From Tetragonia tetragonoides (taxonomy: Eukaryota; Streptophyta; Magnoliopsida; Caryophyllales; Aizoaceae), in NCBI GenBank assembly GCA_038025085.1, contig CM076141.1:11100001-11164000 (forward strand): a stretch of 64,000 nt of DNA, in the 5' to 3' direction. Under the pieces are notes generated by a model that worked only from the letters and a program-made list of their open reading frames with translations, had not been told where the DNA came from and searched no databases. Every line of letters begins with the position of its first letter. The first letter of the stretch is position 1. The position numbers and the translations under genes are program-made. Of this stretch, positions 22,757 to 56,900 are shown piece by piece.

Positions 22757-23659
22757 TCATAGGCGATCGGAGCACTCGGCAGAAGCTATGGCCGTTAAAA
22801 AGTGACTGAAGCCACAACGCGCCATAATAGCGTCCACCGAAGGAGTCACATACCTACGGGCCTTCTCGATGACCGAGAGGCTATCGTAACCCCACATGGC
22901 CGTGTCGACATCCTAAAACAGCACAAAAAAAAAAAGAGTGCAAAGAAAATTAGCTAGGTGATCCTAGTAACAACTACCAGTCTCCAGTTTAGCCCTAAAT
23001 TTTTACAAATCGTAAAATTTAGCATTTTAGCTAAGCCAACATGACGAGAGTAAATTTTAAAGAGAGTAAATTTCACACAAATGTATTTTCCACAAATTTA
23101 CTCGAAAAATCGTTTACCTCCACAGCAAAAGTAAACTTCATTCAAGTTTATTTTCACAGAAATATATAATTGCAACGAGAGTAAATTTCATACAAATTTA
23201 TTTTCCACAAATTAAATATGAATTTCACACAAATTCATTCTTCACATGCATATAAATACAAGAATCCTGCGGGAATTCGCAAATTAACCAGAAAAATAAT
23301 TTCACGCAAATTGGTTTTCCACATTTAACTACACTACAGTTCTCAACCTAGAAATTCTATGTTCGCCTACACACGATTTTATAAGTGTAAAAGAGCGAGA
23401 ACAAGAAATGATGACATACCCGACATTTGGTACCAACGATAACCAAATGATCCTTCCTCTTGAAAACAAGATCGTTGGGCTCCCAACGATCGGTAGGATG
23501 GAAATCACTGCGAGTGAAATCATCCTGGACTAACCGGCTCTCACCCACCCGGTGATGGGGTATACCGGAAGCAAAAACCCGAGTGAAAACATTCGGGGCC
23601 TCATGAACAACAACCTCTTGCCCCTTCCTTTTCCTACCTCCTCTAAGCTTAGGAGCCAT
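22757..23659 (-). pseudogene. Antisense PMD-like gene of a Ty3/gypsy element, 5' part only
   Basis: ATG at 23659 opens MAPKLRGGRKRKGQEVVVHE, a basic start followed by a charged segment. Exon 1 runs to 23420 (TGTCGG|GTATGT). Exon 2 starts at 22912 after TTTTAG (DVDTAMWGYDSLSVIEKARR..IMARCGFSHFL) and stops at 22757-22759. The two exons join in phase and the second resembles the start of plant-mobile-domain proteins, where short W/L-rich helices lead into the fold. The rest of the domain is absent, so the gene is cut off at about 22757, where the transposon sequence also seems to end. Its position antisense and upstream of a 3' LTR (24946) matches the extra antisense ORFs known from Tat-lineage elements. 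Confidence 0.55.
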
Positions 23660-23917
23660 GGATAAAGAGCAAAAAAATGGAGCTTTTGAAATTTGAGTGA
23701 AACTCACAAAACTCACAAATTCACACAATTTTGAGTTTTGACACTAAAAAACACAAGAACAACTAGCAAAATCAAGTTCTACTAAGAATTTGAGCAAAAA
23801 AACCTCAAGATTTGGAGTTAGGGGCTTTGATTGAGGTTGAAAAGCTTGAGCAAAAATGGAGGAGAGAGAAAGAGAGAGCTCGAAATGGGAAGATGACCCA
23901 TTTCGGCCACCCCATTC

Positions 23918-24095
23918 TCCTTTTATGGCGGAAACGCACAAATGACCTAGTGGCTGGTCAAACCGCCACGTGGAGGGTCAGACCGCCCAGCTGGCGGTCA
24001 TACCGCAAGCCAAGCGGCATAGCCGCTTCAGCCAGCGGCTAGACCGCTCCACGTAGCGGTTTGACCGCTTGACGTGGCGGTTTGACCGCCTGGCC
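23918..24095 (-). promoter_or_regulatory. Antisense-gene promoter: GC-rich palindrome array plus TATA-like box
   Basis: From 23957 to 24095 the sequence is a run of GCGGT..ACCGC palindromic units (for example GCGGTTTGACCGC, twice). Downstream on the minus strand lies CATAAAAGG (23927-23919), about 260 nt before the antisense ATG. The element's own LTR (25325-25510) has the same order: GCGG palindromes, then TATATAAA. Confidence 0.5.
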
Positions 24096-24329
24096 CACTT
24101 TCTCACCCCTGACGTATCTTTGGGCCATTGGTTCAAAATCAGTGGGCCCCACACGAGGTCCATAGCTGTTATTTGCGCGCCAAAGTCCGTTATGAAAAAC
24201 AGGACTACTTTAAACCCACGGGTTTGCACATTTATACTTGGCCAAATGGCATGGGCTCAAACCCGACCTAAGGTCTGAGCAACATTTTACTACCCTTTAC
24301 TACTTATTATTTCTAACGAAATATTTTTA

Positions 24330-24800
24330 TTGTGTAACCTACAGCATAGGGTTCCCCTTCGACTGAAAATCGAAGGACGTTTATTGTTTGACCTACAGCT
24401 TAGGGTCACCTTTCGACCAAAAATCGAAAGATTTCTTATCTCTTATATTATTTCTAACGAAATATTTTTTTTATGGTGTAACCTACAGCATAGGGTTCCC
24501 CTTCGACTGAAAATCGAAGGACGTTTATTGTTTGACCTATAGCATAGGGTCACCCTTCGACTGAAAATCGGAGGATTTTTTATTTCTTATCTTATCTCTA
24601 ATAAAACATTTTATTGTGTAACCTACAGCATAAGGTCCCCTTCGACTGAAAATCGGAGGACATTTATTGGGTAACCTACAGCATAAGGTCCCCTTCGACT
24701 GAAAATCGAAGGACGTTTAATGTGTAACCTACAGCATAGGGTCCCCTTCGACTTGAAAATTGGAGGACGTTTATTGTCTGACCTACAGCATAGGGTCAAA
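24330..24800 (+). repeat. Eight-copy hairpin tandem array upstream of the 3' LTR
   Basis: The unit is roughly TAACCTACAGCATAGGGTT, CCCCTTCGACTGAAAATCGA, AGGACGTTTATTG. ACCTACAGC-like starts occur near 24337, 24391, 24480, 24533, 24620, 24673, 24727 and 24780, giving spacing of about 53 bp with two longer steps near 88 bp. Most units contain CCTTCGA, a 7-nt loop and TCGAAGG, a perfect 7-bp stem. This is the 3' non-coding region of the gypsy element. Confidence 0.88.
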
Positions 24801-24934
24801 CTCTCGGTCGAATAAACCGGGGAATTAATGATTGTTTATCTTTAACTGATTGTCACCTCACTCAGTTTTCATGTTTTATTGCAGGTATTGGCATAGGAAT
24901 ACTTTGACCTTCGCTCTATTCGAGCTCGGCCAAA

Positions 24935-26490
24935 GTAGGGGCTTCTGTAGACACCAAAAATTGTGTCTATAATAAGTCCCCGTAAACACCCGATGATGAA
25001 AGGATTGGATTTTGCTCGAACTTGGGTTGCGAGAATAATTGCTCTGATGATTAGCCCAGTTCATTTGAATTAGCCAGTGGAAGCCTTTTGTACAGGTGAT
25101 CCAAACCAGTTGGACTCAATTCAATTGGAGTCCAAAACTGAGAGATAGGCCTCTTTGAACCTAAGGGCCCGAAAGGGAACCCAAACCCATGAGTCAACCA
25201 TTGGTCAGACAAGGGAGCTCAGTCAATCCCGCGTGGACCCCCTCAGAAGAGCCTCCCCTGCACAAAAATCATGCCAGATGCCTATGCAGGCACACCGCAC
25301 CAGGTCCAAGCAGCCACGCTTGGGTTCAAGCGGTGGCCGCTAGGACAAGCGACTGTGCCGCTAGGCCAAGCGGCTTGACCGCTTGGCCTGCCGGTTTGGC
25401 CGCTCAGCCTAGCGGTTTGGCCGCCTGGACCCTTTCTCGCGGACAGCAAAATTCGAGGCCCATTCGATTTCCGTGCCAAACCCTGGCAGCTCCCCCTCTT
25501 CTATATAAACAAAGCTTAGGGTTCAGTTAAAGGGGTTGGGAATTTTAGAGTGACGTTGGAGATTCTCTCTATGAGGTTGGACATTCTCTCTCATATTATA
25601 AACCCTAAATTCTGATTCTACTCCTTTTGGATTAGCCCTAGCACCAAAAAAATAAACCTTCATACTTCATCAAGAGCATGAATTCAAGCAATACAACCCA
25701 ATAAGTTCATTGTGAGCATCCAGGTAATCCAACCTGAGGGTTTTCAATAAATTTTATATTGCTTGTTATTACTAACGAATTTAGTTTATGTGATATGTAC
25801 ATGCATGGCGCGTTTTGGGCAATAGGGCTTGTATTAAGCCTAATGAATGGATGAATGAATGCATATTTATTATTTATTGCTTTATATTGAATTATGCTTT
25901 GTTTGTGAATTGGTGGATGAATTACCTTGTTTGTCTTCTAACTCGCAGGTTTTTAGCATATTTATCGTTTTCTAGCAATAAAAAGCATGTAACTTGATAG
26001 ATTTTTAAAAGTGGTCACATTAATAATGCTTGTTCAAACCCATTAGTTAAAACTAGGAATTTGGACAAACTGAACCCTGTTTGGAACCGTAGCATTAATA
26101 ATTATATTGAATCGATTAGTAAAGGCGGTTGTTGTTAACGGGCGAGTTGGGTGCCTAACACCTTCCTAGCTCGTACCTACGCCCCCGAACTCATTAATAA
26201 AGTCAATTTCCCCAATAGGAATTCGGGTGCACAAGAGTTGAGTTGACGACTTTCTAGACTATCGACTTGATCTCCAAGGTTTCCAAATTACCTCAAAATT
26301 TGGTGGCGACTTCCGACAATCTTAATCATGTCCTTGGTACAAAAATCTCTATGTGCATATACACTAAAAGATTCACAAAATTCGATCACCCAACGCGCTC
26401 TCCTAGGCTGTTCGGAAAACCCGACCCCCCGAAAGAAGGGTCGAAGGTGAGGCATGCGGAAAAGAGGGGAGAAAAATACGGCAGCCTACA
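24935..26490 (+). mobile_element. Polypurine tract and 3' LTR of a Tat-like Ty3/gypsy element
   Basis: A purine-rich GTAGGGGCTTC (24935-24945) precedes TGTAGACACC (24946); the LTR ends ..GGCAGCCTACA at 26490, so the termini are inverted TGTAG/CTACA. It is about 1,545 bp. Inside are a GC-rich palindromic stretch (25325-25435, GCCGCTAGG / AGCGGCTTGACCGCTTGG) and TATATAAA at 25502-25509. GGGCGAGTTGGGTGCCTAAC near 26138 recurs in the inverted LTR at 36627-37889. The 5' LTR and coding region are missing or lie elsewhere. The right end abuts an Athila-like gag, which it interrupts. Confidence 0.75.
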
Positions 26491-26944
26491 GTGGGTAGAA
26501 GTGACTCAAGAACGCCTCTAAGAGCTCATTCCAAGTGGTGATTGAGCCGGGAGGAAGAGTATTCAACCATTGTCTTACCCTCCCCGTGAGTGAGAACGGG
26601 AACAACCTTAACTTGATCGCATCTTGTGAAACCCCATTGATTGTACTGGTGTCACAATATTCCGTGAACATTTGGAGATGCAAGTAAGGTGGTTCGTCCT
26701 GCTCAAATTTATTTCTCGCAATGATCCCTATTAGAGAGGGCTTGATTTCGAAATTGTTCGCTTCCACGGCGGGCCCAGTGATGCCTCCGGGAATCCCTTG
26801 AGCATTGGGTATCGCGAACTCTCTCAAGGGTCGTGCCATCTCTTGTTGAAGGATGGTATTCCTTATTGCGCTTCCCTTTCCCTTAGGAATAGAAACCTCG
26901 AAAGCTAGAGCGTCGATGAACTTGTTCTTTTGCTTCCTAGGCAT
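26491..26944 (-). pseudogene. Athila-like Ty3/gypsy gag, truncated
   Basis: ATG at 26944 (MPRKQKNKFIDALAFE) leads into a gag domain: PPYLHLQMFTEYCDTSTING, then AIKLRLFPFSLTGRVRQWL and LPPGSITTWNELLEAFLSHF. That is the Retrotrans_gag core (RLFPFSL..WL..LPPGSITTW) in its Athila form. Coding ends at 26491, where the neighbouring gypsy LTR begins; the stop seen just beyond belongs to that LTR. All of pol and the 3' LTR are absent from the window. Confidence 0.85.
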
Positions 26945-27084
26945 GCACAATGAGAACGCCCTACAATAATAATCACAAAGACTAACAAGGTGATAACACG
27001 AGTTGATAAGAAAAAAAATATATAAAAGAAATAGAAAATGGTCTAATCTAGCCAAATCAAAAGATTTCTAATATCTATCGCCGA

Positions 27085-27103
27085 GTCCCTGGCAACGGCG
27101 CCA
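27085..27103 (-). other. Primer-binding site of the Athila-like element
   Basis: On the minus strand TGGCGCCGTTGCCAGGGAC follows the LTR end by a few bases. This matches the TGGCGCCGTTGCCGGGGA-type PBS of Athila elements apart from one or two bases. Confidence 0.8.
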
Positions 27104-27109
27104 AAACCT

Positions 27110-28521
27110 TGACACAACCGCAAATGCACGGTGTATGTCAAAGTAATAATCAAGTTTGTACCACGGAGACTCTTTGATAGAGTACTAAATATCCCTAGAT
27201 TATCGACTATCTAGACCGATTAATGGAGTTGATTGGATTGACTAACCTAAACAAACTAACTAATTAAAACTTAATAAAGGTGTGAAACAATAATGGAGGC
27301 AATTCTAGGATAGGAGTCACCACTAATCATGCACATTGATCATTAATTAACCCCGAACAACCCCCAAGCTTAATAACAAACCACTTGACAATTAGCAAAG
27401 GTATCACAAACACCTTCTTTCGAAGGGGAGTTATTTTTACCCAAACACAAACCAAGAAACCTATTTCTAAAATCCTAATTAGGCATGTGTTATATTAAAC
27501 TAAGCTAATTAAATGGTCACAAAAGAAGTAATCCACTTTCGTGGTATTAACTCTCGAGCATCAATAATCAAGCAACCACTATCATCAAACACATTTCCAT
27601 GCTTAACAATAGGTACAAATAAGATAAAATGTGGATCAAGCAATTTATCAAACACTTTGTGGGCACATGCTTAACATTGATAGAAATTTGGAATTAAACT
27701 TGGGGAAGGGGCAAACCAACAATCAAGAGCATGGATTAGGGCTACCTAATCCTAGAACTAATTAAACTACTCACTAATCATGAGATAAGCAAAATAAACT
27801 TCATAATAACAATATCCATTAACATTTAACAACAAAGATTAGAACTTGCAAAGTATTTATAGAAAGAGAGAGGAGAGAGAAAGGTCAAGAAGAACTCACA
27901 AAGATCTTCAATAGTTTCCTCAACCCAAAGTTTAATTACCCTAATAATCTTAAGCAAGGAAGTTCTTAAACCTAAAAATGGAGGCTAGTCCTCTTTAGAG
28001 AGCTAATACTAGGTTAGAGACGAGATAGAATGAGATACTACTCTTCTAGTGGGCTATTTATAGTCCCTAATACTTTAAAGTGAGTACTTGGTCAAACTGG
28101 GTTTTACTCCGCCAGAGTACCCGACCAAGTAAGGCTGCTGGAATTTTACAAGGTATCCTTTACGCTGTCCAATTGATGGGTTACTCTGCCAGAGTACTTG
28201 ACCAAGTAAAGCTTCAAATCATTGCCTTTATCCAATCTTCAAATGAGCTTTCCACATGATCATGGGTGCATCTAGGTGGTTGTGCCTACCCTCTTGAAGC
28301 CCTTTTCCAATGCTTTTCGAATTCATTCCCAACCTTGATTGCATACTCTTATTTCTCATCATTTATGTGCCTAAAATATTATCAAACACACGAAACACCC
28401 AAAAGGCGTATAGAGGAACAAGAGTTGCAAAACTAAGCAAGAAACCCATGAAACAATTGTGAAAATGGGTAAAATGGAGCATGAATTGATCACAAATAAT
28501 TGTCAAAAATGCATATTATCA
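27110..28521 (-). mobile_element. 5' LTR of the Athila-like element
   Basis: On the minus strand it starts TGATAATATGCATTTTTGAC at 28521 and ends ..GCGGTTGTGTCA at 27110, directly before the PBS, giving about 1.41 kb. An imperfect direct repeat around ACTC.GCCAGAGTAC..GACCAAGTAA occurs near 28105-28205. The right flank is the 5' leader of the Tat-like element, so this Athila element probably inserted into it. Confidence 0.8.
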
Positions 28522-29406
28522 CCTATCATGCAAATCGACGCTTCCTCAGCCATGACTCATCAATCCTTGTTGATGAAAAGAATTACAATTGATGTGTCGA
28601 CCATCGGCCGGACGGAAATTGTAATTTGTCGTGGTAACCTCACAGGAGCCAAAAGCCTCTAACCCACATTCGTGCATTCGCTTGCTTATTGTGCATGTGT
28701 CGTTGTAATGCCCATCTGATCACATGTTTGCCTGTAAACTGCGTTGTCATTATGCTTGCATGAATGCATGAATATCGTGATTATGTGCCAACATGTACTT
28801 ACGTGCTATGAGTCTTTTCTTTTATTTTTAGCTAGTTCCTAATGTCCGAAGATGGTGCGAGAATTCCAACTCAATGAACACTCATCATTTTCCCGATGAT
28901 ATATTCTAAAAAGTCATTGAACAATCTTCTAGGATCTTTTTAGTAAAAAAATAAGAGCCAGTCTTTCAGTTTCTCTTCTCCCTTTTTTCCATTTCTTTTT
29001 TTTCTTTTGATGTAATTCAGATTCGGTCAAAAAAAAAAATCAAAAACAAACAAAAAAAAATCGGCAAAACAAAATAAAAAAGAAAACCGCCGAACAAAAA
29101 AAAAATCAAAAATAAATAAATAAATAAAAAGACCGAAATTCTTTTATTTGATTTTTATCCCATTTTCCATTTTCTTTGAGTCTAGAAAAAAAAAAAAAAA
29201 AAAAAAAAGGATAGTCCATCTTTTTCTATTTTTCTTATTTTCGTTCATTGACTTTGTTTTCCTTGGATATTAGGAAAATATTCGGGCATTTAGGCTTAAG
29301 GACTTTTTTTTAGGACAATGTGTTTTTCTATGTGTGGGTCAACTTTTTCTTAGTTGAGAGTCTCGTGGTCTTTTTGATTCTAAAAGGTCTTCTACTCGTT
29401 CAGATC
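28522..29406 (+). other. Presumed 5' leader of the Tat-like element
   Basis: No ORF of note. Contains A-rich and T-rich runs (about 29030-29210) before the gag ATG. The 5' LTR of the Tat-like element is not seen and may have been lost or displaced by the Athila-like insertion. Confidence 0.45.
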
Positions 29407-31297
29407 ATGTCAGGGCCCCTCAAGCGTTCCACAGCCGAAGATACACAGAACGAATCTCTCCTCATGCCAGAGTCGGAAATGGGCCAGAATGCTAAGAAGA
29501 TCAAAACTCATTTTGTGACAACTGCATCCAGTCCACGAAACTTCAAGAGAGTCAATACTTGATACTCAAGACAAATCCCGTGATTTGGATGTACAACTGA
29601 ACCGATCACTCCGAGAGGCCAAAATCCAAGTAGGCCTTGATCCCGATGAAACCCCGCGCCTCGTTGAGTACAGAAGCGCAGGCAAACCAACCCAGGCCAT
29701 TGTTGAAGCACAAGATGATATTGAGCACCTAACTCAATACATAGTTGTCTATCATTCAGAGATCCAAAGGTTACAGAAGACAGTCGCTGGGTTAGAACAA
29801 AGAATTAAGGCTCTAGAAGTTGACAAAGTTCTTCTCAATCAAGAGCAACCTCGCTGGCCTCAGGAACACATTTTTCAACAAATGAGGGTATATGGCTACA
29901 TGCAACCAATAGGGCCCACTTATGAACTCATCCCGGAAAATGAAAACCCAGGTGTTTGCTGTGAGTGTTGTCGAGCCTGCGAACATCACACCAATGACTG
30001 CAAGAACTTAAGAGATAAAATCCAAACTTTCATTGATGAATGAACCATGTGGCCCGCACATCATTGGTTATCCAAGAAAAGATCAAGCAGGCCAACCCGT
30101 GAATTCACGCCACTGGCAATACCTATTCATGATGTTATGACAGCCTTACTTCGTCGTGGAGATCTCCGGTTCCTAGAAGGGGTCTTACCAGAAGAGGAGG
30201 ATCATTACCTTTATTGTAGGTACCACAGATGCTTTGGCCACCTTACTGAACAATGTTATCGCTTGAAGTGCGACATCCAATTCATCATTGATTCCGGAAT
30301 TATTTCTCCTCCGAAGTCCCATATATTCAAGATCACCATACGTAAGTATGAATCACAATCCGAAGTCAACGTGCTGGAAATAGATCAGGCACCGTTCATA
30401 CCACACTCGAACCCTCATGTTAATGGTTTTCTCAAGAAGCAAGGGTACATACCCGATATGGGTTTAGGAAGAAATGGACAAGGGCCCACCACCTTCAAGT
30501 TAGAAGCCAAAAATAACTCCTTTGGACTTGGTTACCAACCTACCGACAAAGAAATCCATGATCAAACCCTGAAACAAAGAAAACAATTTAAGGAAAAACA
30601 GGTTATCCCACCCTATAGCCACACTCTAAATGGCCAGTTCATCACAGAAGGAGACTACTACCCATATTACGGCTTCCCTGAGCCATACTATGACGAAGAA
30701 GCTAAGGTCACACACCCGGGTTTTGAAATCTTCCGAGACTGCAATCAATTGGACGAGGAGGCACACCACCCCTTAGAACCGGCGAGTCAAGATTGGACCA
30801 AAGCACCAGGGAACCAGCTGCTAGGTCTTCTATTCGGCCAAGAAACTAGAATGGCTGAAACTCCCGAGATGGATGAGGAGGTAATGGCTCTCAATGATCG
30901 CAACTTCAATCTTGCGGACCTAATATATACTACTGAAGATGTCACAATGGGATGGCGCAAAGAAGTGAGCTGGACTGGCTCGAATGGACGAAAGGTCACG
31001 ATATCTACCGGGGAAGGACCAATGATGGAAGAATCTGATTCCGAGTCTCAGTTAGAGTCAGTGTCTAGCTTAGGTCCTAAATATGAGTCAGGATCGGGGA
31101 GTGTCCCCTTTACTTCTTCTAAGTCTAGTGTCAATGTGAAGGGAAAGTCAGATCCCTTTCTTGTTGTTTTCAATTCTAATATCAATAAAATGAAAAAATC
31201 CTTCTGCTTATTTGTTACCTTGTTTATGCTATTGATAAATCCAATGAACACAAAGTTGCACAAATCATTAACTAATCAATTTAAGCAATGTAAGTAA
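29407..31297 (+). pseudogene. Tat-like gag with two Cys/His motifs and G-patch-like segment, protease absent
   Basis: ATG at 29407 (MSGPLKRSTAEDTQNESLLM) runs to 29562; coding then continues in frame 2 from about 29556, a 1-nt frameshift. A coiled-coil-like stretch (HSEIQRLQKTVAGLEQRIKA) is followed by CCECCRACEHHTNDCKNLRD and, after an in-frame TGA at 30041-30043, a 416-codon open frame with YCRYHRCFGHLTEQCYRLKC. Both resemble the CxxH..GHxTExC gag motifs of Tat/Ogre elements. GYIPDMGLGRNGQGP and FGLGYQPT are the G-patch-like and GLGY segments normally found between protease and RT. Only about 50 residues separate the second Cys/His motif from the G-patch, so the protease is missing. The acidic, Ser-rich tail ends at 31297 without RT. 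Confidence 0.72.
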
Positions 31298-31386
31298 ACA
31301 TCATAAAGCAAGAATGCAGATTTTCACTTTTACAGGAATTTGAGTGACTGAACTCTCTCAACAATGCCGCTCCACAAAGAAGAAGC

Positions 31387-33241
31387 GAGCCAGCCTATTG
31401 CAACAACCTCGACACAGAAATGACTTTGGAGGATCCTTGATACCAAGACGTCTTCAACTACATCACCAAACGAATATACCCTCAAGATGCACAACTAAGA
31501 GCTAAACGGGTCATCCGTCTCTTAGCGGCTCAATACACAGAATACAAGGGGGTTCTGTACAAAAAGTCCTACAACGAGGTCAACCTCAGATGCGTGATAT
31601 CCGAAGAAGCCGCAGAGATTATGGACGAGGTACACAATGGTGTGTACGAGCCACACATGAATGGCCGAATGCTCTCTACAAAGGTCCTACGGTTGGGATA
31701 CTACTAGACTACTATGGAAAGGGATTGCTACGACTATGTCAAGAAGTGCAAGAAGTGTCAGATGTATGCCAACCTGCAGCATATGCCGCCCTCAATGCTC
31801 CACAACTTCACATCCCCTTGGCCATTTTCCGCATGGGAAATAGATATCATTGGTAAGATCACCCCAAAGGGCTCGGGAGGACATGAATACATCCTAGTAG
31901 CCATAGACTATTTTACCAAATGGGTCGAAGCCCAATCCTATGTCGTCCTTACCTCCAAACAAGTGTCCAAATTCATAAGGAACAACATCATTTGCCGATA
32001 CGACGTTCCGCATGAAATCATCAGTGACCATGGATCCCACTTCAAAGCCGAGACAGCCACCCTCCTCAAAAGCTACAAAATCCAGCACCACAAATCATCC
32101 CCTTACCGTCCCCAAACCAATGGCGCAGTGGAAGCCTCCAACAAAAACCTCAAGACTATCATTGAAAAGATGATAGAAAACTACAAAGATTGGCCCATCA
32201 AACTCCCATTTACCCTTTGGGGATATAGGACATCCATAAGATCCTCTACGGGAGCAATACCTTATTCCCTAGTCTATGGAGTGGAAGCATTTCTACCCAT
32301 AGAAGTCCAACTACCCTCCATGCGCATAGCCTTAGAAGGAGAAATTCTTGAAACCCAATGGTTACAAGCCCGCTACGAAGAGCTCATGTTTACGGATGAA
32401 AGACGCCTACGGGCCCTAGACCATTCCCACATGTACCAACAACGCATGGCAAGAGCATTCAACAAAAAGGTTTGACCTCGAAATTTAAAGGAAGGGGATT
32501 TAGTTTGGAAAGAATTACGTGCCCCAGTTACCGACCCTAGAGGCAAATTTCAACCCAACTGGTCCGGCCCATTCATCATCAAAGACATTATACCTAGAGC
32601 TGGCAATTTGTCGGGTTGGGTCGGGTCGGGTTCGTGTTCGGATTATATATAAACGGGTTGAAAAATGCTTGACCCAACCCTAACCCGTTTATTAAACGGG
32701 TTGAAAACTCCAACCCTAACCCTACCCATTTAATAAATGGGTTGACCAGGTCGACCTGTTTAACCCATTTAATTAATTAATCTTTGGAAAAAAGGGTTAA
32801 ATTTTAAATATAGAAGGAAAAAATAATATTTAAGTTATCAAATAATTATGTATTTGTGAAATAAACTATTGGGTTAAGAGAATATGATATATTCTTATCA
32901 TTATCAAATATTTATGTCACAAAATGTGTTGATATTCAATTTTCTTTTTTGTCAAAAGTGAGTAAATGGGTTAGGTGGGTCATTCTCGGGTTGAGTCTTT
33001 CAACCCTAACCTTACCCATTTATTAAACGGGTTAGTCGTGTCGGACCCATTTAATTAAACGGGATGAAAATCTCGACCCAAACCCGCTTATTTCGGGTTA
33101 GGTTCGTGTAGGGTTCTCGTGTCGGGTCAGCTTTTGCCAGCTCTAATTATATCAGGAGGTGTAGTCAGGCTCATGGATATTGATGGCATCGAGTTCAGTC
33201 AGCTCACCAATATGGATCAACTGAAGAAGTGGTACTTCTAA
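31387..33241 (+). pseudogene. Tat-like integrase, nonsense mutations and a MITE insertion
   Basis: Frame 1 shows the pre-integrase segment (LRAKRVIRLLAAQYTEYKGV), an HHCC zinc region (VHNGVYEPHMNG..CKKCQM) and the rve core: D in AWEIDIIGKI, D in EIISDHGSHF and E in TNGAVEASNKNL, so all three catalytic acids remain. Stops sit at 31438 (TGA), 31705 (TAG) and 32473 (TGA). By family comparison they replace Trp, Trp and probably Arg, all explainable by C-to-T or G-to-A changes. The C-terminal part (LKEGDLVWKEL..NWSGPFII) is interrupted at 32595 by a hAT-type MITE; the frame resumes after it and ends at TAA 33239-33241. RT and RNase H are absent upstream. GAACTACGCTGGCCTGATTC near 33298, just after the stop, is typical non-coding sequence of this lineage. 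Confidence 0.88.
32595..33145. mobile_element. hAT-type MITE inserted in the integrase
   Basis: The left end TAGAGCTGGCAATTTGTCGG and the inverted right end TAGAGCTGGCAAAAGCTGAC share a TIR of about 12 bp. The flanks ATTATACC (32587-32594) and ATTATATC (33146-33153) form an 8-bp target duplication with one mismatch, as for hAT elements. The interior carries GGGTTGGGTCGGGTCGGGTT-like units in both orientations and no ORF. Confidence 0.9.
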
Positions 33242-33558
33242 AAACAAAAAATCCGATAATTAAAAAAAAAAAAAAAAAAGACGCACACAATTTGAGCGAA
33301 CTACGCTGGCCTGATTCCACACTGGATACGTAGGTAACCCTTTTTCAAACTCAGCCAAAATCAATCCAAATTTCCTTTCAAACTCATGCAAAAGGGATAA
33401 TCTTTATTCAAACTGAACGAATAAGCTTACATTGCAAGAGTTAAACTTCCTAAGGTTAAAAAAAAATAATAATAATAACGCAACTATAAGGGTTTAAGTT
33501 AAACAAATTCTTATTATTATTTTTTTCAAAACTAGACTTGCTTTCCTAGAAAACTACT

Positions 33559-34906
33559 TTAATCCTTCTTCCCTTTAGAAGTTTTCGTTGAAGAGTTCTT
33601 TTTTGAAAGACCTTGGCTTGAGGACGACCTATGATCACTCCCTTGAGCTGGGGGCTTGCCTCTTTTCATTACATGATAGCCTCCCATTTGAGGCCCTTCC
33701 TTTCTTTTCTTGCTTCCTGTTTTTGAGTCATACTTAGGCTTTAGCTGGTCCCACTCCTCATGACAAAGGGCTCGTCTCGCTTCTCTGTCACCGCAGGAAA
33801 GCCAGTTCAGATAGGTCTCAGAAACTTGAGTAAGGGCAATCACCCGAGGTACAGTCCAGCGGTCCCAGCTACGCCAGTACTTTCCCTAATCCGTAGCAAA
33901 CTCAGTGGTCAAAGTTACGATAGTTGGTCTCGTAGTTTCCTGACGAGGAATAACCTGCTTCAACCCATATTGCCTCATGACCCTAGAGGGGAAGAAGAAA
34001 GTAGTCCTGTACAAGCCCAGTATGGTAGTATGAGGAACCAAATTGTCACAAGCCACTAAGGAGGTCAAGTTCCACCAAGACACATGCCAGCGGATAACAG
34101 GTTCCGCATGGAAAACGGCATCCCATTCAGCAAGGGACTTTTCAGAATATAGCCTTTTCCTAACCAAGAAGCTAGCAGCGGTATAGGTTTTCTTTGACCA
34201 AGCCCGAGGAACACAAGCTATCATATTATCTGGTGATTCCGTTAGCCTCAGATGCTCACATAACCAAATTTGAAGCAGTAGGGGGCTGCCAGAAAAAGCT
34301 TCGTGAGGAGAGATTTTCAGCCTGTCGAGCCTAATAATAGTTTCCCCTACAACCGGATGGAAAGGAGAATGCCCTTCAACCATTTGATTAACCACTCGCA
34401 ACAATGAGGCTCTGCCCAAGTTAGGAGATTCTTCATTAGCAAACAATAGGCCGTTTAACAGGCAAAGTACAAAAGCCTGACGGCGACAACGCTTGAATAT
34501 TGCGTTCTTGTCAGAAGAAATAGCAAATTTTTCGCAGAGTTGAACCAAGTCCACATCGACACCAAGAACTATGCTTTTGGCTTCTACAGATGACAAACCC
34601 AAGAATTTCTTGTACTGATCCCTAAAACCATCTCTCACATAAGGCATAGCTAGGGGAAGAACATCAGGCATATTAGTGATCACAGCAAATTCTTCAACTA
34701 AAGGACATAATTCAGAGTTACCAAAACGGAAAACATGCAGGTCAGAGTCCCAATAATTCAGAGCAGGATCGAAGAAGGGGCCACAATATTTTTGTTGGTC
34801 TTAAGGTCAGCAAGGTAGAGACATGGAACGGAGCTAGTTCAAGTTTATCTTCTACGGTCAGATTTTTCCACCAGGCATCAAACAGGTTTTCAAAGGATTT
34901 CACCAT
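33559..34906 (-). pseudogene. Antisense PMD-like ORF (aORF) of the Tat-like element
   Basis: ATG at 34906 (MVKSFENLFDAWWKNLTVED) starts a frame of about 448 codons. A 1-nt frameshift near 34800 precedes DPALNYWDSDLHVFRFG and LCPLVEEFAVITNMPD, which fits the WDP..RCFRFG..PTLEEY signature of plant-mobile-domain/aminotransferase-like proteins. Later segments include FKRCRRQAFVLCLLNGLLF, then LLLQIWLCEHL. A TAG at 33886-33888 interrupts the same frame, which continues to 33559 with a Lys/Ser-rich, probably nuclear-type tail (GSKKRKEGPQ..KTSKGKKD). It lies opposite in strand to integrase and downstream of it, as in Tat-lineage elements with antisense ORFs. Its role in those elements is not established as far as I know. 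Confidence 0.75.
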
Positions 34907-34976
34907 GATAGAAAATTTGGGAAATTTGGGAGAGATAAGGTCTTAAAAGTGATACAACATCAAGTATCCCGTAAAT

Positions 34977-35102
34977 CCTATTTATAGGCAAAAACGCGGG
35001 CCAAAGAAGACAGAAATCCACAAAAAGCCCAAACCAGAGCCGTCAGCGGCCCCGGTCAGTGCCGCTAGCGGCCCAAGCCTGCAGCCCAGCGCCGCTAGCG
35101 GC
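34977..35102 (-). promoter_or_regulatory. Promoter of the antisense ORF: TATA box and GCCGCTAGCGGC palindromes
   Basis: On the minus strand CCTATAAATAGG (34988-34977) lies about 70 nt before the antisense ATG. Upstream are two perfect 12-bp palindromes GCCGCTAGCGGC (35061-35072, 35091-35102) and a degenerate third. The minus-strand LTR at 36627-37889 has CCTATAAATAC (37428-37418) with the same palindrome at 37513-37524 upstream of it. Confidence 0.6.
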
Positions 35103-35488
35103 CCTGACCCTAGCCCGGTCCGAATTTTCCTCTCGCTCCAGCTCGCCCCATTGATCTGGTCTGCCCGATTTAAGCCCAATTTTGATACCGCGTTGAATTA
35201 CAAAGCCCGAGACTCTCTTAGTTTTATCTTTTTCAATTTTTTCTTTTTTATTATTTTTCTTTTTTTTAGGGGGTATAATATGTGTAATTTTTGTTTTTTC
35301 TTGCAATTTTTACCCTTTTTTCTTTATTTTATTCCCCAAATTATGGCTTTTCCTACTGCATAACGCATTGCATACTTAGAGATCAGACGGGCATAATCGA
35401 GTCATCATATCATATCATATATATCATAAAAATGCATAAAAATAGGAGTTCGAAATCTCAAGATCAATGTCTACAAGGATATCCAACA
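35103..35488. other. Spacer between the two antisense genes
   Basis: T-rich run near 35220-35340 and an ATCAT repeat near 35404-35424. No gene seen. Confidence 0.35.
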
Positions 35489-36626
35489 TCACTCAGCCAG
35501 AGTCGTCATCACCGTTGCTGTCAGCCTCATCATCAACGGACAGCCCCTGACCGTAGTTCCCAGTCGAATAGTAAAGAGAAGAGCGATAAATGGGCCTGCT
35601 GTTTTCGGGCCTCGTGTCCTGCCCATCATATGCTGGTGCACGCATAGGGGTACCTGCCGGAAACACCGCGGCAAAGGAACTCTCTGTGGCCTGACTGGCG
35701 AAATCCATAGCCATATCCTGATGCGAAGGCCCAGTATGAGGAACATCCCATCCAGGGGCATTCGCCTAACCTCCAACCGTGGGGGTAACAATGGGCCTGC
35801 TATCAAGAGAAGGCTGGAAACCCAAAGGGGAGAATATCTCCGGAATGTACGGCACAGAAGGTCCGAGCGCCTCATCAACAGGAGGCCTGGTCACAACTAC
35901 AGGAGGTGAACGAGCAACAGACGGCCTGCTCGCCGAAGAGGCCCTCGCGGCAGAGGAATGTCGAGGCCCCACCGAAGACGAAGACTGGGACATCTGCAGA
36001 CAATCAAAGTTGAGATGTTAAGTTAAGCACTTCACTTAGCTAAACAAAGGATAAAAGTCTACTTATCCTCAACGGTCCGAGACCGAGAACTCTTCCCCTT
36101 GCCCATTACTCGACCATAACCTTTCTTCAGCAGGTGGATGAGCTTGAAGATCTGAGAGGTCTACTCCCGGTTCAACTACAAAAAGAGAGCCACAAGATAG
36201 AGTCAGCACTCAAAAGCAAACACAAACACAAGAAGGGATAAAAAGGAGCTCACCCCCGTACAACCATCAGGCAAGGGCAAGCCCTCCACAGCCTCTCCGT
36301 CAGCCGTATGAAGTGGGAACTCCTCTACTATGCGTCCCCCACTCTCTCCAATGTACCTCACCCCATTGGTCGGCAAGGTCACGCTTGGGGGCTGACCCCG
36401 AGGAACTCTAGAATGAGACCTCCTAGGACCCTGAGGAGCTAGACGATCCGCTTGCAAGACACAAGAAGTCAGTATATCACACAAACAGCTAAAAAGATGC
36501 AGATAAGTTTCTTACCTCAGAAGTAAGGTCCGGCATCAAGCGGTCCAAGCACTAGGCCAGGTACACGGCCGTGCGGTCCAAGCCAACAACCTCTGGCATA
36601 AGAAACTCCGTGGCCTCCATACCACG
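35489..36626 (-). pseudogene. Second antisense spliced gene fragment, probable C-terminal part of a PMD-like gene
   Basis: Four exon-like blocks on the minus strand: 36626-36516 (MEATEFLMPEVVGLDRTAVY, one in-frame TAG, ending GAG|GTAAG); about 36450-36255 (SVTLPTNGVRYIGESGGRIV, ending before GTGAGC); about 36175-36065 (SQIFKLIHLLKKGYGRV, with a TAG, ending before GTAGAC); and 35996-35489 after TCTGCAG (MSQSSSSVGPRHSSAARASS, Pro/Ser-rich tail with a stop near 35768). The KLIHLLK-type block before a low-complexity tail is what I expect late in PMD-type transposon proteins. Upstream exons are cut off by the LTR starting at 36627. Exon phases were not all checked. Confidence 0.45.
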
Positions 36627-37889
36627 TGTAAGGACCCGGGATTTTCGTCCAATCCTTTTTACATAAATGTATTGGTTTCCACGGAGTGCGTCCTTATAGA
36701 AAATTTGTAAGTTGGGGGTTTAGATAAGTTCAAGGTACCATCGAGTTCGAAAGGTTTTGTAAAGACTTGAATTAAATAAAAACCATGAAAGAGGTCACAA
36801 ATCTGCTATCGGCATTTTATCGAAGGGACAAATCGAACGGACAACCCAATAGCGCGAAAAGTGAACTGATCATGGTTTTAGAAAGACTCCCGCTCATAGA
36901 GAACATATGAGTACCCAAAAATAATAGGTTCGGCGGCGAAGGTACAAGGTGGGAAGGTGTTAGGCACCCAACTCGCCCGTTTATGACGGCCTCTATTAAC
37001 TCAAGTTTGCGTAATAATTAAGACATAACTCCCATGCAAGACCGGATTACAACCTAGACTTAGACTATTAATTGGTTCACCATAAGCACCACAACATTTA
37101 TTTAACCCTTGTTTAGACATGCATTTGATTGACAAGTTGAGCAACACAACGATTATACAGACAATATTTAGGAAGCAATAAAAACGTTATTCTAGCATGA
37201 TATCTACATTATGACTACTAGAAAATAAACAGTTAAGCAATTAATTTAATTTGAGCCCTCAGGAATTTGTACCTGAACTGTAGGCTATATTTGACAAAAA
37301 TAGTAAAGGACAAGATCTCAAATTTTAGAAGAAAGAGGGAGAAGCTCAGAGCCAATACTACTGAGAATAGAGGGTGTCAATTGTAGACTGTGTGTTTTGA
37401 ACTTAGGGTGGAGGGTCGTATTTATAGGCGCAGGAAGTAGGGTTGGATGGATGAAAAGGAGCCGAAAATTGGATTTGGTCCGAAAAAAGTGTCGGCCAGA
37501 AGCAAGGTCAGCGCCGCTAGCGGCCCTAGGAATATGATCAGGGCCGTTGACGGCTGTCAGCAGCCAGCTGAATGTCGTCATAATGACGACATCCAGTCCT
37601 TTTTTATTTTCCGGAGGAATTTAAATATTCCTAAAAATGTGAAAAGAGTGTTTTAACCTTGAACGGTAAAAGACCGTTTTACCCCTAAATTGCAACTTGG
37701 CGACCGGGAGTCGGAAAGAGGCGTGAGACGGGGCTTTTGAATGAAATGGAATGAAGGAGTGTTTGGAGGAAAAACCTGAGACCTTATCTTAACTACTAAA
37801 GCAAAAAATAGCAGTTCAAGTTTATAAATTACTCCTTTCATCATCGGGCTTTTGCGGAGAAATCTGAAGACGCTTTTTTGGCGTCTACA
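36627..37889 (-). mobile_element. Inverted LTR of a Tat-like element
   Basis: On the minus strand it begins TGTAGACGCCAAAAAAGCGT at 37889 and ends GGGTCCTTACA at 36627. It shares CCCGATGATGAAAGGA and GGCGAGTTGGGTGCCTAACA with the plus-strand LTR at 24946-26490, so it is a related but diverged LTR. It contains CCTATAAATAC (37428-37418) preceded by GCCGCTAGCGGC (37513-37524). The flanks (CCACG left, AATGC right) do not match as a target duplication, so I cannot call it a solo LTR, and no PBS or PPT was found beside it. Confidence 0.65.
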
Positions 37890-37908: not shown

Positions 37909-40751
<2,843 letters not shown>

Positions 40752-40753
40752 CC

Positions 40754-42442
40754 ACACCAGGCTATGGGAAATATCTGATCATTAGGATCTCTTCCAATAG
40801 CTGCAAGGAGCATGCCACCAAGAAAAGTCTTGATGAAGCACCCATCTAGGCATATCACTTTTCTGCATCCATTTTTGAACCCTAAACTTAATCCATCAAA
40901 ACTGACAAATAACCTTTGGAAAACAGGTAGATCATTGTTTTTTGGGTCAGTGTATAGATGGAAAGTAGAATGGGGATTTGCTTCTCTTAAAGCTTCCAGA
41001 AAACTGCCAATTTTCCTGTAATGCTCCTTCATGCTACCATGTAGTTTCTTATGTGCCTCACTCTTGATCTTATATGCCAAACTTCTTTTGATCAGAACCC
41101 TAAAAGTTTTCTTCACAGCAACTTCAATTTCCTTTGCAGGACAGTGGGTTCTGGCTTTAAATACTTCAAGAAACTCAGTTGCAATGCTTTAGATGTCAAC
41201 TGTCTATTTTTGTTCATATCTCTACAACAAGTATGAAGATCATTCACAGTCTTTGTTACAAAATAGTCTCTCTTTGATTCCCAACTCCCATACACCTTAA
41301 AAGGACAACCATCAACACATACCACACCAAGCCTTTCACCCCTCTCCTTGTCACTCACCTTGTAGGTCAAGTTCTTACCTTGAGCAACTGCATATTTGGT
41401 CACTGCAAATCTGAAACTGTCCCTTGTTGGAAACCTCATGCCAGCCATCCATTTGAGCTTGCTAAAGTTAGTCTGCTCATTCACAGTTGGTGGCTTGTTC
41501 TTCCTTTGCTTCCCTAATGAATATTCTTCTCCACTCTCTACAGGGCTTTCAATATCACCATCACTATCTTCATATTCAGAAATATAACCAGATTCTTTTG
41601 GTAGGTCATCTAACTTTGGTACTTGGTGCTCTTGTGCTCTACTTGGAGATTTCAGCTTCTTAGGAATTGTTCTGCTGGAGCTTGGCTTCTTGGTCAAATC
41701 ATCTGAAGATTCCCTCACAGAACCTTTAGATCTGAGCTTTTTAAGTTTTTGTAAAAGATCATTCAGTTCCACTTTTTTTTGTGGTTCCACTCCTTCACTT
41801 CATCCTTTGTTGAGTGGTATTCATCATCAGTAGTATCAATATCGGAAGCAGACTACACCTCAAACAGTGGTTGTTCAGGCTCTTCATTTACATTAGATTC
41901 ACTTTCCTCCATAATAGTCTTCCCTTTCTCATGTTTCCTGGATCCAAGTTTTTTTTTTCTTTTCCCACCTTCATGGTCTGAGTCTTCATCCTCTAAAGAT
42001 TCATATTCTGAGATCTTAGAACTACTGTTTGAGGTGGGGATACAGGGACTGGTATTGGGGTTGTGAGCTCTATGGAGGTTTGTTTAGTAGATTTTGGTAG
42101 GATAGACATGTTTATGAGTTGTTGAATGGGGCTACTCTCATTCACTGCAAACAATTCCACTATACCATGCACTTCACCAAGATCACGAATTTCATTTATC
42201 TTTGTATCCGCCCAAATTTTGTGTAACCCATCATCCATTGACTTATCAGGTTCTAAGTAATACAATTGCACAACATTAGATTGTATCTCAATCTTCTTAG
42301 GTAAACCATCTTTCAACCACCAAACGTCTATAGTATCAGTATCAATGTTTGTGGTAACTTTGGTTAATCCACCCACGTAAACAATTTTAGGTGTAGTCTT
42401 CAAAATCTCATCATAATGATACTTCAATTGAATATCACCCAT
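40754..42442 (-). pseudogene. MULE (MuDR-type) transposase, N-terminal two thirds, broken
   Basis: ATG at 42442 (MGDIQLKYHYDEILKTTPKI) opens the N-terminal region with VGGLTKVTTNIDTDTIDVWW. An acidic linker with frameshifts and stops follows (about 41800-42010). The MuDR DNA-binding region comes next: MRFPTRDSFRFAVTKYAVAQ, CPFKVYGSWESKRDYFVTK, DLHTCCRDMNKNRQLTSKAL. After another frameshift near 41190 the transposase core starts: VFQRLFVSFDGLSLGFKNGC, KVICLDGCFIKTFLGGMLL with the first catalytic Asp in LDGCF, then AIGRDPNDQIFPIAW. Coding stops at about 40754, where retroelement DNA begins; the rest of the core and the SWIM zinc finger are gone. Confidence 0.88.
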
Positions 42443-48581: not shown

Positions 48582-50450
<1,869 letters not shown>

Positions 50451-50544
50451 CTGTATTTGTGGATAATTGGATATTATGTGGTGCAAGGGGGTTTTATAGA
50501 ATTAGAAAGAAAGGTGGATTTCTAATTCAATTTATCATCATAAT

Positions 50545-50548
<4 letters not shown>

Positions 50549-50625
<77 letters not shown>
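50549..50625. repeat. (AT)n tract
   Basis: Pure TA repeat ending in TATAAAGGAGGC, the presumed start of the plus-strand Helitron. Confidence 0.97.
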
Positions 50626-50628
<3 letters not shown>

Positions 50629-52006
50629 GAGGCATATTTTAGGCGTAATGAGGTGTGCCACGTAGGCGAGAATTTTAGGAGCGCTCCATCTAAGCGAAGA
50701 TAAAGAAAAAAAAATTGGTGTAAAACGTTTAGGACTCTTTAGCATCCCTATGGTTTAGGATTCTTGAGTTGTGATAGACCTCTAGAGTTTTATAAGAGTT
50801 ATACTAGATCTCTGTCAAATATTTGATATCAAATATATCTTTTTCTACACGTCTTAAAAAATAATAATTTTTATACCATCATATTCGCATCGAAAAATTC
50901 TTTAGAACGAGATGCATATCTGATATGTATAAGAAACATGTAAGAGTGCATGTATATGTTGGTTCCTGTAAATAAGTAAAAATAATAATATTAATAATAA
51001 AATTAATGAATATTAATATACAGATATTTCAAGCAACCCGTGCAATGCTGGCAATTTCAGAGAGTTTTTTTTGCATGCCACATCAGCGATTCAATTAAAA
51101 TTTTAATTATTTTGTGATTTAATAAAATAAAAAATAGTTGAAAAACTAAAAGATAATCATCAAAAGTTTGGCCCGTACTTCACCATCATTAGTGTGAAGA
51201 ATTTGCATCAATGTTGAACACTTGCGAAAATAATAAGTCAGTTACCCAATTGATCATTTCTCTTTCGTTGCAACGAAAAAAAAAGACGGATGTTCCTCCA
51301 CATATAAATGTTCCCCCACTAAAAACTAACGTTTATGATAGAACTTATGTAAGAAATTAGTTACTAATATACCAGAAGATTGGAACAAATGGAACTCTAG
51401 AATGAATAGAATATGTTATGTGTATATATAGCTAAAATAAAAGATGAAGCAAGTACATTATTGACCTGCATGTGCACTCAACATCTCAAACTGTAATATG
51501 AGAAAGGTTATTTTTCGGGAGCAATAAGGCGTGCCACCTAAGCGATAATTTTAAGAGCGCGCCACCTAAGCGAGAATAATGACAAAAAATAATCGGTTTA
51601 AAATATTTAGGAGTCTTAGCATCCTTATTGGTGTAAAATTAGATATCGATAAACCACTAGAGTTTTATGAGGGTTATTAAAGATTTTCGTCATATATTCA
51701 AAATCATATATAACATTTTGTATAATTTTATTATGTTTTATTGGTAAAAGATAATTGTCAGTAGTTGGATTGTAATATGAGTCTTATTTATTTGGATTGT
51801 ATAATCACAACAACAACAACAACAAAAAAAAAACAAAAAAAAAACAAGAAGATTGAATCACGTTTGGAAGTTGGATTGTAATATAAGTCTTATTTGGATT
51901 GCATAATTACAAAGATAATATTAAAAGAAACCTAATTATTGACATTTTCAATATTAGTGGTAGTCTTTTTTAAGTAACCCGTGCATCGCACGGGCTTTAA
52001 AACTAG
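50626..52006 (+). mobile_element. Plus-strand Helitron, copy A
   Basis: Begins near AAAGGAGGCATATTTTAGGC after the AT tract and ends with a perfect 7-bp hairpin CCCGTGC-ATC-GCACGGG, CTTTAAAA and CTAG (52003-52006), followed by T. Two internal blocks share GTGCCAC.TAGGCGA and GCGCCACCTAAGCGA (about 50652 and 51530), so it may be composite. The exact 5' TC is obscured by the AT tract. No Rep/helicase. Confidence 0.72.
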
Positions 52007-52008
52007 TA

Positions 52009-52968
52009 TCTATATATTAGAGACATTTTCTAACAGCATTGGAGGCGTCTACCTAAGCAAGCCATTGTAATAAAATTTTAATATGAATATAAAATAGAAA
52101 TATATGTTTTGGTATAGAATATATATACTAAAGTTGTACTTTCCTAAATCGTCAAAGAGTACACTATTAATTAGAGGTTTTGGTATAGAATATATACTAA
52201 AGTTATACTTTCCTAAATCATTATAGAGTAGACTAATAGACTAATCTACAATGATTCTAGGTCCAATCTTTGATAGAAAACTTTACCATTATCACGTATA
52301 ATTTTATAACTGTACGTAATATACTGATCCCCCATGTTATTTTAGGGCTCCAATTTATGTTCCCTTCAACTTTATAATTGTTAATGTACTCCCTTCGGAC
52401 CATAAATAAATTTACATTGGACTTTTTGCGTTCTTGAAGGCAATACTTTGACCGCATATAACTTTGAAAAAACAAGCAAGCATTAAAATATGTTTTGCTA
52501 TTCTAAGGTTTACGTATAAAAAAAATTATTTTTTGAAAAGTAGTTATGTATACATTAGACATTTAAACTGATTTTACCATAAAAGAAGGATCATATCTTT
52601 GGAAGGTTAGTTGTACACTTATATCAACATAAGAGCATTGACGTACCAAAATCAAGCATAGAAAGACTTTGAAACTATTAACTCTTGGATCATGTAACAT
52701 ATGGGATGAGTTAATTAATAGTTAATTGAAATTGATGATAAGAGTTTAAATTAGGTAAGATGCCCTATAAAGTCATAGTAATCTTTTTATACGGCATTCA
52801 TGATATTAAATGGATTATATAAATATTTATCCATATATTACTAATATTTTTTCATAAGTGACAATTACACTCGGATTTTTCGATGAGATTAATAATCATG
52901 TTATATTAATTTTATTATACAATCACAGTCCATGCAACGCACGGACATACTCACATGCATCCACCTAG
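52009..52968 (+). mobile_element. Second plus-strand Helitron, copy A
   Basis: Starts TCTATATATTAGAGACATTT directly after the previous element plus one A. It ends CACCTAG before T, with a GTCCATGC..GCACGGAC hairpin about 20 nt upstream. The A|TC..CTAG|T boundaries follow the Helitron insertion rule. Non-autonomous. Confidence 0.72.
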
Positions 52969-53436
52969 TATGTATATATATATATACCATGACTTTACTC
53001 TTATTTTTTGGGTTCACAACCAAGGTATATTCCACCATCGACTATCATGATTATTTTCCCGCGTAGGTTTATAGGCACCTCAAACAGTGGGACAACTGAT
53101 CGAGAAATTTAGAATTGTTCCGTACCCAATAATGTAAAATTCAAACCGATTTCGATTTTGATTAAGGATAGATAAATCCCTAGCTAACACTCAATACACC
53201 TCCTTGGTTTACCAGGACCAGGATCGACTTTACTAACTAAACTCTATATCCCCTCACAACATTATAGGGGCCGGGCATATTTAAATTTGCATGAAAGAAG
53301 ATAAGGAGACTATGTATATTCTAATTGTGCATCCCCTCACAACGTTATAGGGACACATATCAAAATGGAGTGATCGATTAATGAAATATTGTCCTAGCGT
53401 AGTATAATAATGTTTGATTCCTCCATGCCTGGCCTT
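52969..53436. other. End of copy A, no gene seen
   Basis: Contains a short duplicated phrase CCCCTCACAAC.TTATAGGG (near 53251 and 53332). No ORF of note. Confidence 0.4.
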
Positions 53437-53484
53437 GGCCCCTGCGTGGCGTCCCACGTGTCGTGGCCACACAAAATAGACTCA

Positions 53485-55517
<2,033 letters not shown>

Positions 55518-55531
55518 TTATATTTATATAT

Positions 55532-56898: not shown

Positions 56899-56900
56899 TA

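Follow-up and report, generated by a model that had tools for sequence, protein, structure and literature searches.

Paired dyad arrays in LTRs and ahead of antisense genes at two Tat-like element remnants: a putative shared binding array

The 64-kb stretch of DNA analysed here (the window) contains two remnants of Tat-like retroelements, each associated with a gene on the antisense strand, and raises the question of what the sequence preceding such a gene has in common with the nearby LTR. A preliminary description of the locus placed a palindrome array followed by a TATA-like box ahead of both antisense genes, and this arrangement was found at both (arrays A1 and A2; Table 1). The two LTRs, L1 and L2, were said to repeat the layout. 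The order of array and box was indeed the same in both, but the distances were unequal, the nearest half-site lying ~36 bp from the box at A1, 78 bp at L1, 51 bp at A2 and 85 bp at L2, as calculated from the coordinates.

Table 1. Features of the two element remnants and their surroundings (coordinates within the window)
Feature	Position	Strand	Description
Antisense gene 1 (MAPKLRGG...)	22757-23659	-	Exon 1 from ATG at 23659, predicted to end at a GTATGT donor at 23419; exon 2 begins at 22912
TATA-like box, antisense gene 1	23919-23928	-	CCATAAAAGG, including CATAAAA at 23921-23927
A1 array	23954-24089		10 dyads; units of 20-21 bp containing CCGC and GCGG half-sites; upstream of antisense gene 1
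Tandem repeats	24305-24797		53/54- and 144-bp units, between antisense gene 1 and L1
L1 LTR	24946-26490	+	TGTAGACACC...GCCTACA; purine tract AAAGTAGGGG just before; interpreted as the 3' LTR of element A
L1 array	25330-25424		In U3; 21-bp units, 5 dyads
TATA box, L1	25502-25509	+	TATATAAA
Element C, Athila-like	26491-28531	-	LTR, PBS TGGCGCCGTTGCC, gag start; Retrotrans_gag E 2.6e-6
Element B, Tat/Ogre-like remnant	28532-36626	+	ORFs at 29519-31297; integrase from 31708, interrupted by a MITE
Antisense gene 2	33559-34906	-	PMD-like; reading frame broken near 34800, stop in frame at 33886-33888, last stop 33559-33561
TATA-like box, antisense gene 2 (A2)	34979-34988	-	CCTATAAATA
A2 array	35039-35102		GCCGTCAGCGGC, GCCGCTAGCGGC, GCCGCTAGCGGC (plus strand)
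Possible 3' exons of another gene	35480-36626	-	Truncated by L2; located 5' of antisense gene 2; by eye
L2, isolated LTR	36627-37889	-	Strand opposite to element B integrase
TATA-like box, L2	37419-37428	-	CCTATAAATA
L2 array	37513-37554		GCCGCTAGCGGC at 37513-37524 and GCCGTTGACGGC at 37543-37554 (plus strand)

When the window was scanned for GCGG/CCGC dyads with a spacer of 0 to 9, a pattern picked after the arrays had been seen, 18 of 19 dyads fell in the four arrays, A1 and A2 being upstream of the antisense genes and the other two in LTR U3; the sole exception was at 58850. The motif GCCGCTAGCGGC with up to two mismatches occurred four times in the window (0.20 expected), and GCGGYTTGACCGC with up to three mismatches occurred 28 times (5.5 expected; maximum of 11 in 100 shuffles). 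All four arrays are self-complementary. Rfam returned 0 matches at the gathering score, and the observed/expected ratio of CpG, 0.81 to 1.06 in the arrays versus 0.40 to 1.05 across the remaining segments of A, B, L1 and L2, indicated no special retention of CpG.

The arrays were then compared with one another across 316 or 317 windows per array. A1 and L1, which are read as belonging to one element (element A), were reciprocal best matches with a score of 66, the next non-partners scoring 25 and 24, and their alignment contained 78 matches in 105 columns. With the half-sites masked and the flank excluded, A1 and L1 still scored 22 versus 12.0 +/- 2.0 for shuffled sequence, and with the flank included 1 of 2000 shuffles was equal or better. 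One of four flank comparisons matched (CTGGCCCACTTTCTC and CTGGACC-CTTTCTC), with 7 and 2 of 20,000 random 20-mers equal or better; this flank was picked after the alignment had been seen. The spacers are also common to both arrays. At the sequence level, A1 and L1 are thus related copies whose likeness extends past the palindromes.

A2 and L2 were likewise reciprocal best matches, with a score of 38 and next non-partners at 24 and 26. Beyond the dyads nothing in common was detected between them, 65 and 230 of 1000 shuffles being equal or better. With the half-sites masked, the A2-L2 scores (18 and 16) were exceeded by those of the cross-pair comparison A1-L2 (21 and 20; 14 and 43 of 1000). 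The best non-partner of A2 was L1, with a score of 24 (window mean 14.2, sd 2.9), a weak cross-pair likeness of half-sites. Relatedness beyond the short palindromes, set beforehand as the point on which the proposed kinship of LTR and antisense-gene upstream region turned, was therefore found in pair 1 (2 of 2000 shuffles equal or better, flank excluded) and not in pair 2, where the dyads alone are shared. The two pairs differ in array type and dyad spacing and gave no significant alignment with each other. Since the arrays differ, one common host factor for both pairs is not favoured.

The boxes gave a different picture. That of antisense gene 1 (CCATAAAAGG) is unlike that of L1 (CTATATAAAC), and the A1 array runs in the same DNA direction as that of L1, and hence has the opposite orientation with respect to the antisense TATA-like box. 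What pair 1 has in common is therefore the array and not the promoter, and the proposal that the antisense gene had been armed with a copy of the LTR promoter was not supported. For pair 2, identical strings in A2 and L2 had been reported. Both GCCGCTAGCGGC and CCTATAAATA are present at each; GCCGCTAGCGGC is commoner in the window than expected, as given above, but CCTATAAATA exceeded expectation by little: with up to one mismatch it occurred 18 times (11.0 expected; 4 of 100 shuffles reached as many), and a third exact copy lies at 49309, outside both elements. The sharing of CCTATAAATA by A2 and L2 is accordingly weak evidence of relatedness.

Elements A and B are both broken remnants, separated by element C. 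Element A, truncated at ~22757, shows two Tat-type features, a purine tract just ahead of its LTR and an antisense gene located 5' of that 3' LTR, and we take it and L1 to be Tat; the Athila label of element C is likewise our assumption, made from its PBS. Element A appears to have been inserted into element C. L1 was also considered as the 5' LTR of element B, and this was dropped because the gag of element C follows L1 at once. In element B, the plus-strand integrase matched rve (E 4e-12), its Tat clade being assigned without a tree, and the upstream ORFs gave a G-patch match just under the cut-off and looked gag/nucleocapsid-like by eye. Among the element B ORFs scanned, covering part of the element, no match to reverse transcriptase or archaeal RNase H was found. 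The LTRs had been described as the elements' own. This fits L1, but L2 lies on the strand opposite to the integrase of B; its 10-base flanks showed no target duplication, and no PPT or PBS was seen beside it by eye. The motif GGGCGAGTTGGGTGCCTAACACCTTCC, at 26140-26166 in L1, occurs elsewhere only in L2. Searches for Tat DNA relatives gave none in viral_contigs and, by LTR motif, none in genome_contigs. A single locus with a 28%-identical integrase (L001) came from a bacterial MAG record and was left out of the comparisons.

Both antisense genes had been called PMD-like, a label that probably suits the second. Antisense gene 2, located past the integrase of element B and encoded on the minus strand, matched PF10536 (PMD) with an E value of 2.5e-8 and 34.0 bits, 0.9 bits short of the cut-off of 34.9, and matched DUF7745 with 19.1 bits (cut-off 26). 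Three protein homologues were found among 848 candidates, and a relative, P0001, with 42% identity across 95% of the open stretch, cleared the PF10536 cut-off with 41.2 bits. The predicted structure of the PMD stretch had a mean pLDDT of 38.3, too low for a structure search. Antisense gene 1, which is truncated at ~22757 and has splice sites placed by eye, matched 0 Pfam families at E values up to 10 as a 130-aa piece that may end before the PF10536 domain, and the searches returned no protein homologue. We had initially presumed it to encode a MAIN-like PMD protein, and this assignment was dropped for want of a Pfam match or homologue. For the possible exons at 35480-36626, two pieces were without a Pfam match, one of them in a frame other than the presumed coding frame.

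Within each pair, then, a dyad array particular to that pair precedes a TATA-like box in two places, the U3 of an LTR and the region ahead of the antisense gene, and we propose that its job is that of a putative shared binding array, a reading to which we give a probability of about 0.45. A dimeric protein would bind the dyads, whose 20-21-bp period in element A would correspond to two turns of the helix; once bound, the protein would act on the two promoters jointly, and gag-pol and the antisense gene would be produced, or protected from silencing, simultaneously. The protein may be element-encoded. This reading is favoured by the placement of nearly all dyads in four promoter-proximal arrays, by the reciprocal best pairs, by the relatedness of pair 1 outside the half-sites, by the 20-21-bp period and by the precedent of Grande gene23. 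It is weakened by the broken state of both elements, the reliance of pair 2 on dyads alone and on an LTR of doubtful membership in element B, the differing box distances, the lack of a domain in gene 1, the A1-L2 masked score above that of A2-L2, the A2-L1 likeness and the CpG result. A more specific and rather improbable version is that the antisense product itself recognises the private dyads of its own element in the two promoters, which it would activate or release from silencing; this would be a VANC-like self-targeting in which protein and dyads change together between families.

The strongest competitor, itself somewhat unlikely, makes the array a relic of reverse transcription: slippage or a switch of template would have duplicated it between U3 and the stretch that precedes the 3' LTR, and the array would regulate nothing at the antisense gene. 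The copies of pair 1 share one orientation on the DNA, which is how direct repeats within a single RNA would appear, the A1 array is inverted relative to a box that was not copied, and tandem repeats, seen here too, are common in such element regions according to the available text of PMC11963269. Such copying gives no account of why arrays lie just upstream of both antisense TATA-like boxes, and it leaves pair 2, with dyads alone in common, unexplained. That each promoter independently gathered GCC-rich half-sites recognised by a host transcription factor is less probable again, because the spacers and one flank common to A1 and L1 exclude it for that pair, and the two pairs differ in spacing and do not align significantly. 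In its favour, repeats in U3 can act as enhancers in plant LTRs, the GCCGC/GCGGC half-sites resemble known plant sites of the GCC-box or LOB-domain type, and the weak A2-L1 likeness (24) crosses the pairs. The self-complementarity of the arrays would also suit a role as RNA, in which transcript hairpins feed small-RNA silencing or packaging, and the sense RNA would be expected to carry the arrays. The antisense transcript, however, would be expected to begin downstream of its array and hence to lack it, and the position just upstream of the TATA-like boxes would be unexplained; we regard this as very improbable. The shared binding array remains our preferred reading, and these data hint that two promoters of one element may be switched by one common factor.

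Several components of this arrangement are already on record for such elements in the available text of the sources, namely antisense genes, PMD and self-driven antisense promoters. In Retand elements, pol and the 3' LTR are separated by a long stretch that contains antisense genes and tandem repeats (PMC11963269), PMD occurs in 57% of Ogre elements (PMC6317226), and PMD-A clades were described as Gypsy-encoded (PMC5418596). Ogre/Retand-type Ty3/gypsy elements (Tat clade), as there described, resemble the present locus in antisense genes and tandem repeats, and probably in PMD; no published account of an array common to LTR and antisense promoter was found in the search results or in the available text of these sources. 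In maize, gene23 of Grande is antisense and is transcribed from its own upstream promoter, as told in PMC7264820, a likeness that we draw by description only. The role of Tat-type antisense genes is left open in the available text of PMC7264820 and PMC11963269. With an array that both promoters have in common and that varies from element to element, the question can be put directly: which protein binds it, and is that protein element-encoded? In the VANDAL transposons of Arabidopsis, VANC is associated with family-private short tandem motifs in non-coding parts of the transposon (PMC5735166, PMC10398659, as far as their available text goes). Those motifs differ from one family to the next. The possible likeness lies in motif arrays in non-coding regions; those seen here are each confined to one of two pairs within the window. 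The VANC system differs in that a DNA transposon carries motifs read by a proven element-encoded protein, whereas here the motifs are palindromic, lie in an LTR element and are known from sequence. If the protein that binds the dyads were element-encoded, LTR retrotransposons would possess a sequence-specific anti-silencing mechanism of their own.

Judged by its proteins, the window appears to be plant DNA carrying nested LTR retrotransposons (see the table). Element A, which we take to be of the Tat type, is the right-hand portion of one LTR element within the 64 kb. The gag of element C (Retrotrans_gag, E value of 2.6e-6), a minus-strand element presumably Athila-like by its PBS, lies directly after the LTR termed L1. 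L1 was therefore interpreted as the 3' LTR of element A, and the dyad array upstream of antisense gene 1 (A1) and L1 are read as belonging to one element. In element B, the two ORFs gave a G-patch match slightly below the cut-off (21.8 versus 22 bits), and an integrase was identified (rve, E value of 4e-12). Beyond the integrase is antisense gene 2, whose PF10536 match (E value of 2.5e-8) reached 34.0 bits against a cut-off of 34.9; its protein relative P0001 (42% identity) is itself above the PMD cut-off. To the right of this gene are apparent exons of a further minus-strand gene. The isolated LTR, L2, is oriented opposite to the element B integrase and has in common with L1 the first 58 bases, a conserved block near the opposite end, and little else.

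Features of the window
Feature	Position	Strand	Dyads	Remarks
Antisense gene 1 (element A)	ATG 23659; exon 2 from 22912	antisense		predicted GTATGT donor 23419; truncated ~22757
Array A1			10	upstream of antisense gene 1
Tandem repeats (element A)	24305-24797			53/54 bp and 144 bp, between antisense gene 1 and LTR; small dyad-like stretch TTCGACTGAAAATCGAA in the 53/54-bp repeats
L1 (element A)	24946-26490		5 (U3)	preceded by purine tract
Element B	28532-36626			two ORFs, integrase, then PMD-like gene on minus strand
MITE-like insertion	32595-33145			inside element B integrase gene; 12-bp inverted ends TAGAGCTGGCAA; 8-bp target duplication ATTATACC/ATTATATC (7/8 matching); presumably hAT-like
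Array A2			2	upstream of antisense gene 2
L2	36627-37889	minus	1 (U3)	isolated LTR
ORF	40730-41188			adjoins Mutator-type remnant; no family match
Mutator-type transposase remnant	41113-41799	minus		DBD_Tnp_Mut, E 1.8e-5, 24.7 bits (cut-off 25)
Tandem duplication, ~5 kb	48582-58202			48582-53439 recurs at 53632-58202 in three pieces, 96-99% identity
Similar stretches	3042-3173; 58801-58935		1 (58850)	80% identity; by eye, starts of small cysteine-rich secreted-looking plant proteins; the sole dyad outside the arrays falls in the second

Dyads of GCGG/CCGC half-sites with a spacer of 0 to 9, a pattern picked after the arrays had been seen, number 19 in the 64 kb. The repeated units are 20 and 21 bp in A1 and 21 bp in L1. 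Read along transcription, the array upstream of antisense gene 2 (A2) comprises two copies of GCCGCTAGCGGC and one of GCCGCTGACGGC, L2 comprises GCCGTCAACGGC and GCCGCTAGCGGC, and the 19-mer AGGGCCGCTAGCGGCGCTG is common to both. The half-site closest to the TATA-like box lies upstream of it by ~36 bp in A1, 78 bp in L1, 51 bp in A2, and 85 bp in L2.

Each array was compared with all 400-base windows that did not overlap the query (316 or 317 in number), and the best match was in every case the partner: A1 and L1 found each other at 66 (next 25 and 24, respectively), and A2 and L2 at 38 (next 24 and 26). The runner-up for A2 was a window of L1, and A2 windows were among the next best for L1, a weak half-site likeness across the pairs. 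When the promoter regions were aligned locally, the A1-L1 score of 66 was obtained with the arrays co-directional on the DNA (maximum of 29 in 200 shuffles); the other orientation gave 52 (maximum of 30 in 200 shuffles), as expected since the units are symmetric. A2-L2 scored 38 and 35 in the two orientations (shuffle maxima of 32 and 34). For A1-A2, A1-L2, and L1-A2, neither orientation stood out from the shuffles (22 to 145 of 200 scored as well), and L1-L2 matched in one orientation, at 47, in the first 58 LTR bases and outside the array.

The preliminary description named a lack of relatedness beyond the palindromes as refuting it; with half-sites masked, pair 1 does show such relatedness. 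The A1 and L1 arrays alone scored 22 against 12.0 +/- 2.0 (2 of 2,000 shuffles as good; 13 in the other orientation, 658 of 2,000), 27 with the right flank added (1 of 2,000), and 27 with flanks when co-directional, against 14.3 +/- 2.1 (0 of 1,000; other orientation 14, 613 of 1,000). One of the four flank comparisons matched, CTGGCCCACTTTCTC with CTGGACC-CTTTCTC, equalled by 7 and 2 of 20,000 random 20-mers of the window; the remaining three scored 6 to 8. For pair 2 the masked scores were 18 and 16 (65 and 230 of 1,000 as good). The cross-pair comparison A1-L2 reached 21 and 20 (14 and 43 of 1,000), above the true pair A2-L2; this counts against our reading and is taken as chance among 12 comparisons, but it shows that pair 2 offers little beyond the dyads. 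Of the strings described as identical in pair 2, the dyads are so, but CCTATAAATA is not rare in the window, where 18 sites match it at one mismatch or fewer (11.0 expected).

Element A carries two related copies of the array, one in U3 and one ahead of the antisense gene. The preliminary description suggested that the antisense gene carries a copy of the LTR promoter. However, since the A1 and L1 copies are co-directional on the DNA and the genes opposite, the orientation of the array with respect to its box is reversed at the antisense gene; the boxes also differ, and antisense gene 1 therefore shares the array with the LTR, not a promoter copy. The orientation of near-palindromic sites may matter little. 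L2 is tied to element B by the array itself, and so pair 2 gives no independent proof that the array is shared with an element's own LTR. As the material is two broken elements in one window, without relatives, we regard the shared-array system as a good lead, short of demonstrated.

The 20- to 21-bp period of pair 1 corresponds to two helix turns, so that neighbouring dyads would face the same side of the double helix, where a dimeric protein might bind them side by side; in this way both promoters of an element could be set jointly. In the portions of the literature searched, antisense genes are on record between pol and the 3' LTR (PMC11963269), 57% of Ogre elements are reported with PMD (PMC6317226), and Grande has a self-driven antisense promoter (PMC7264820); no account of an LTR and an antisense promoter with the same dyad array was found in those portions. 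Host PMD proteins function in silencing, and an anti-silencing use for captured PMD was proposed, as speculation, for MULEs (PMC5418596). It is conceivable that an antisense PMD protein reads its own element's dyads. The arrays here differ from pair to pair, which resembles the VANC system, where a protein encoded by the element recognizes tandem motifs private to each family (PMC5735166, PMC10398659).
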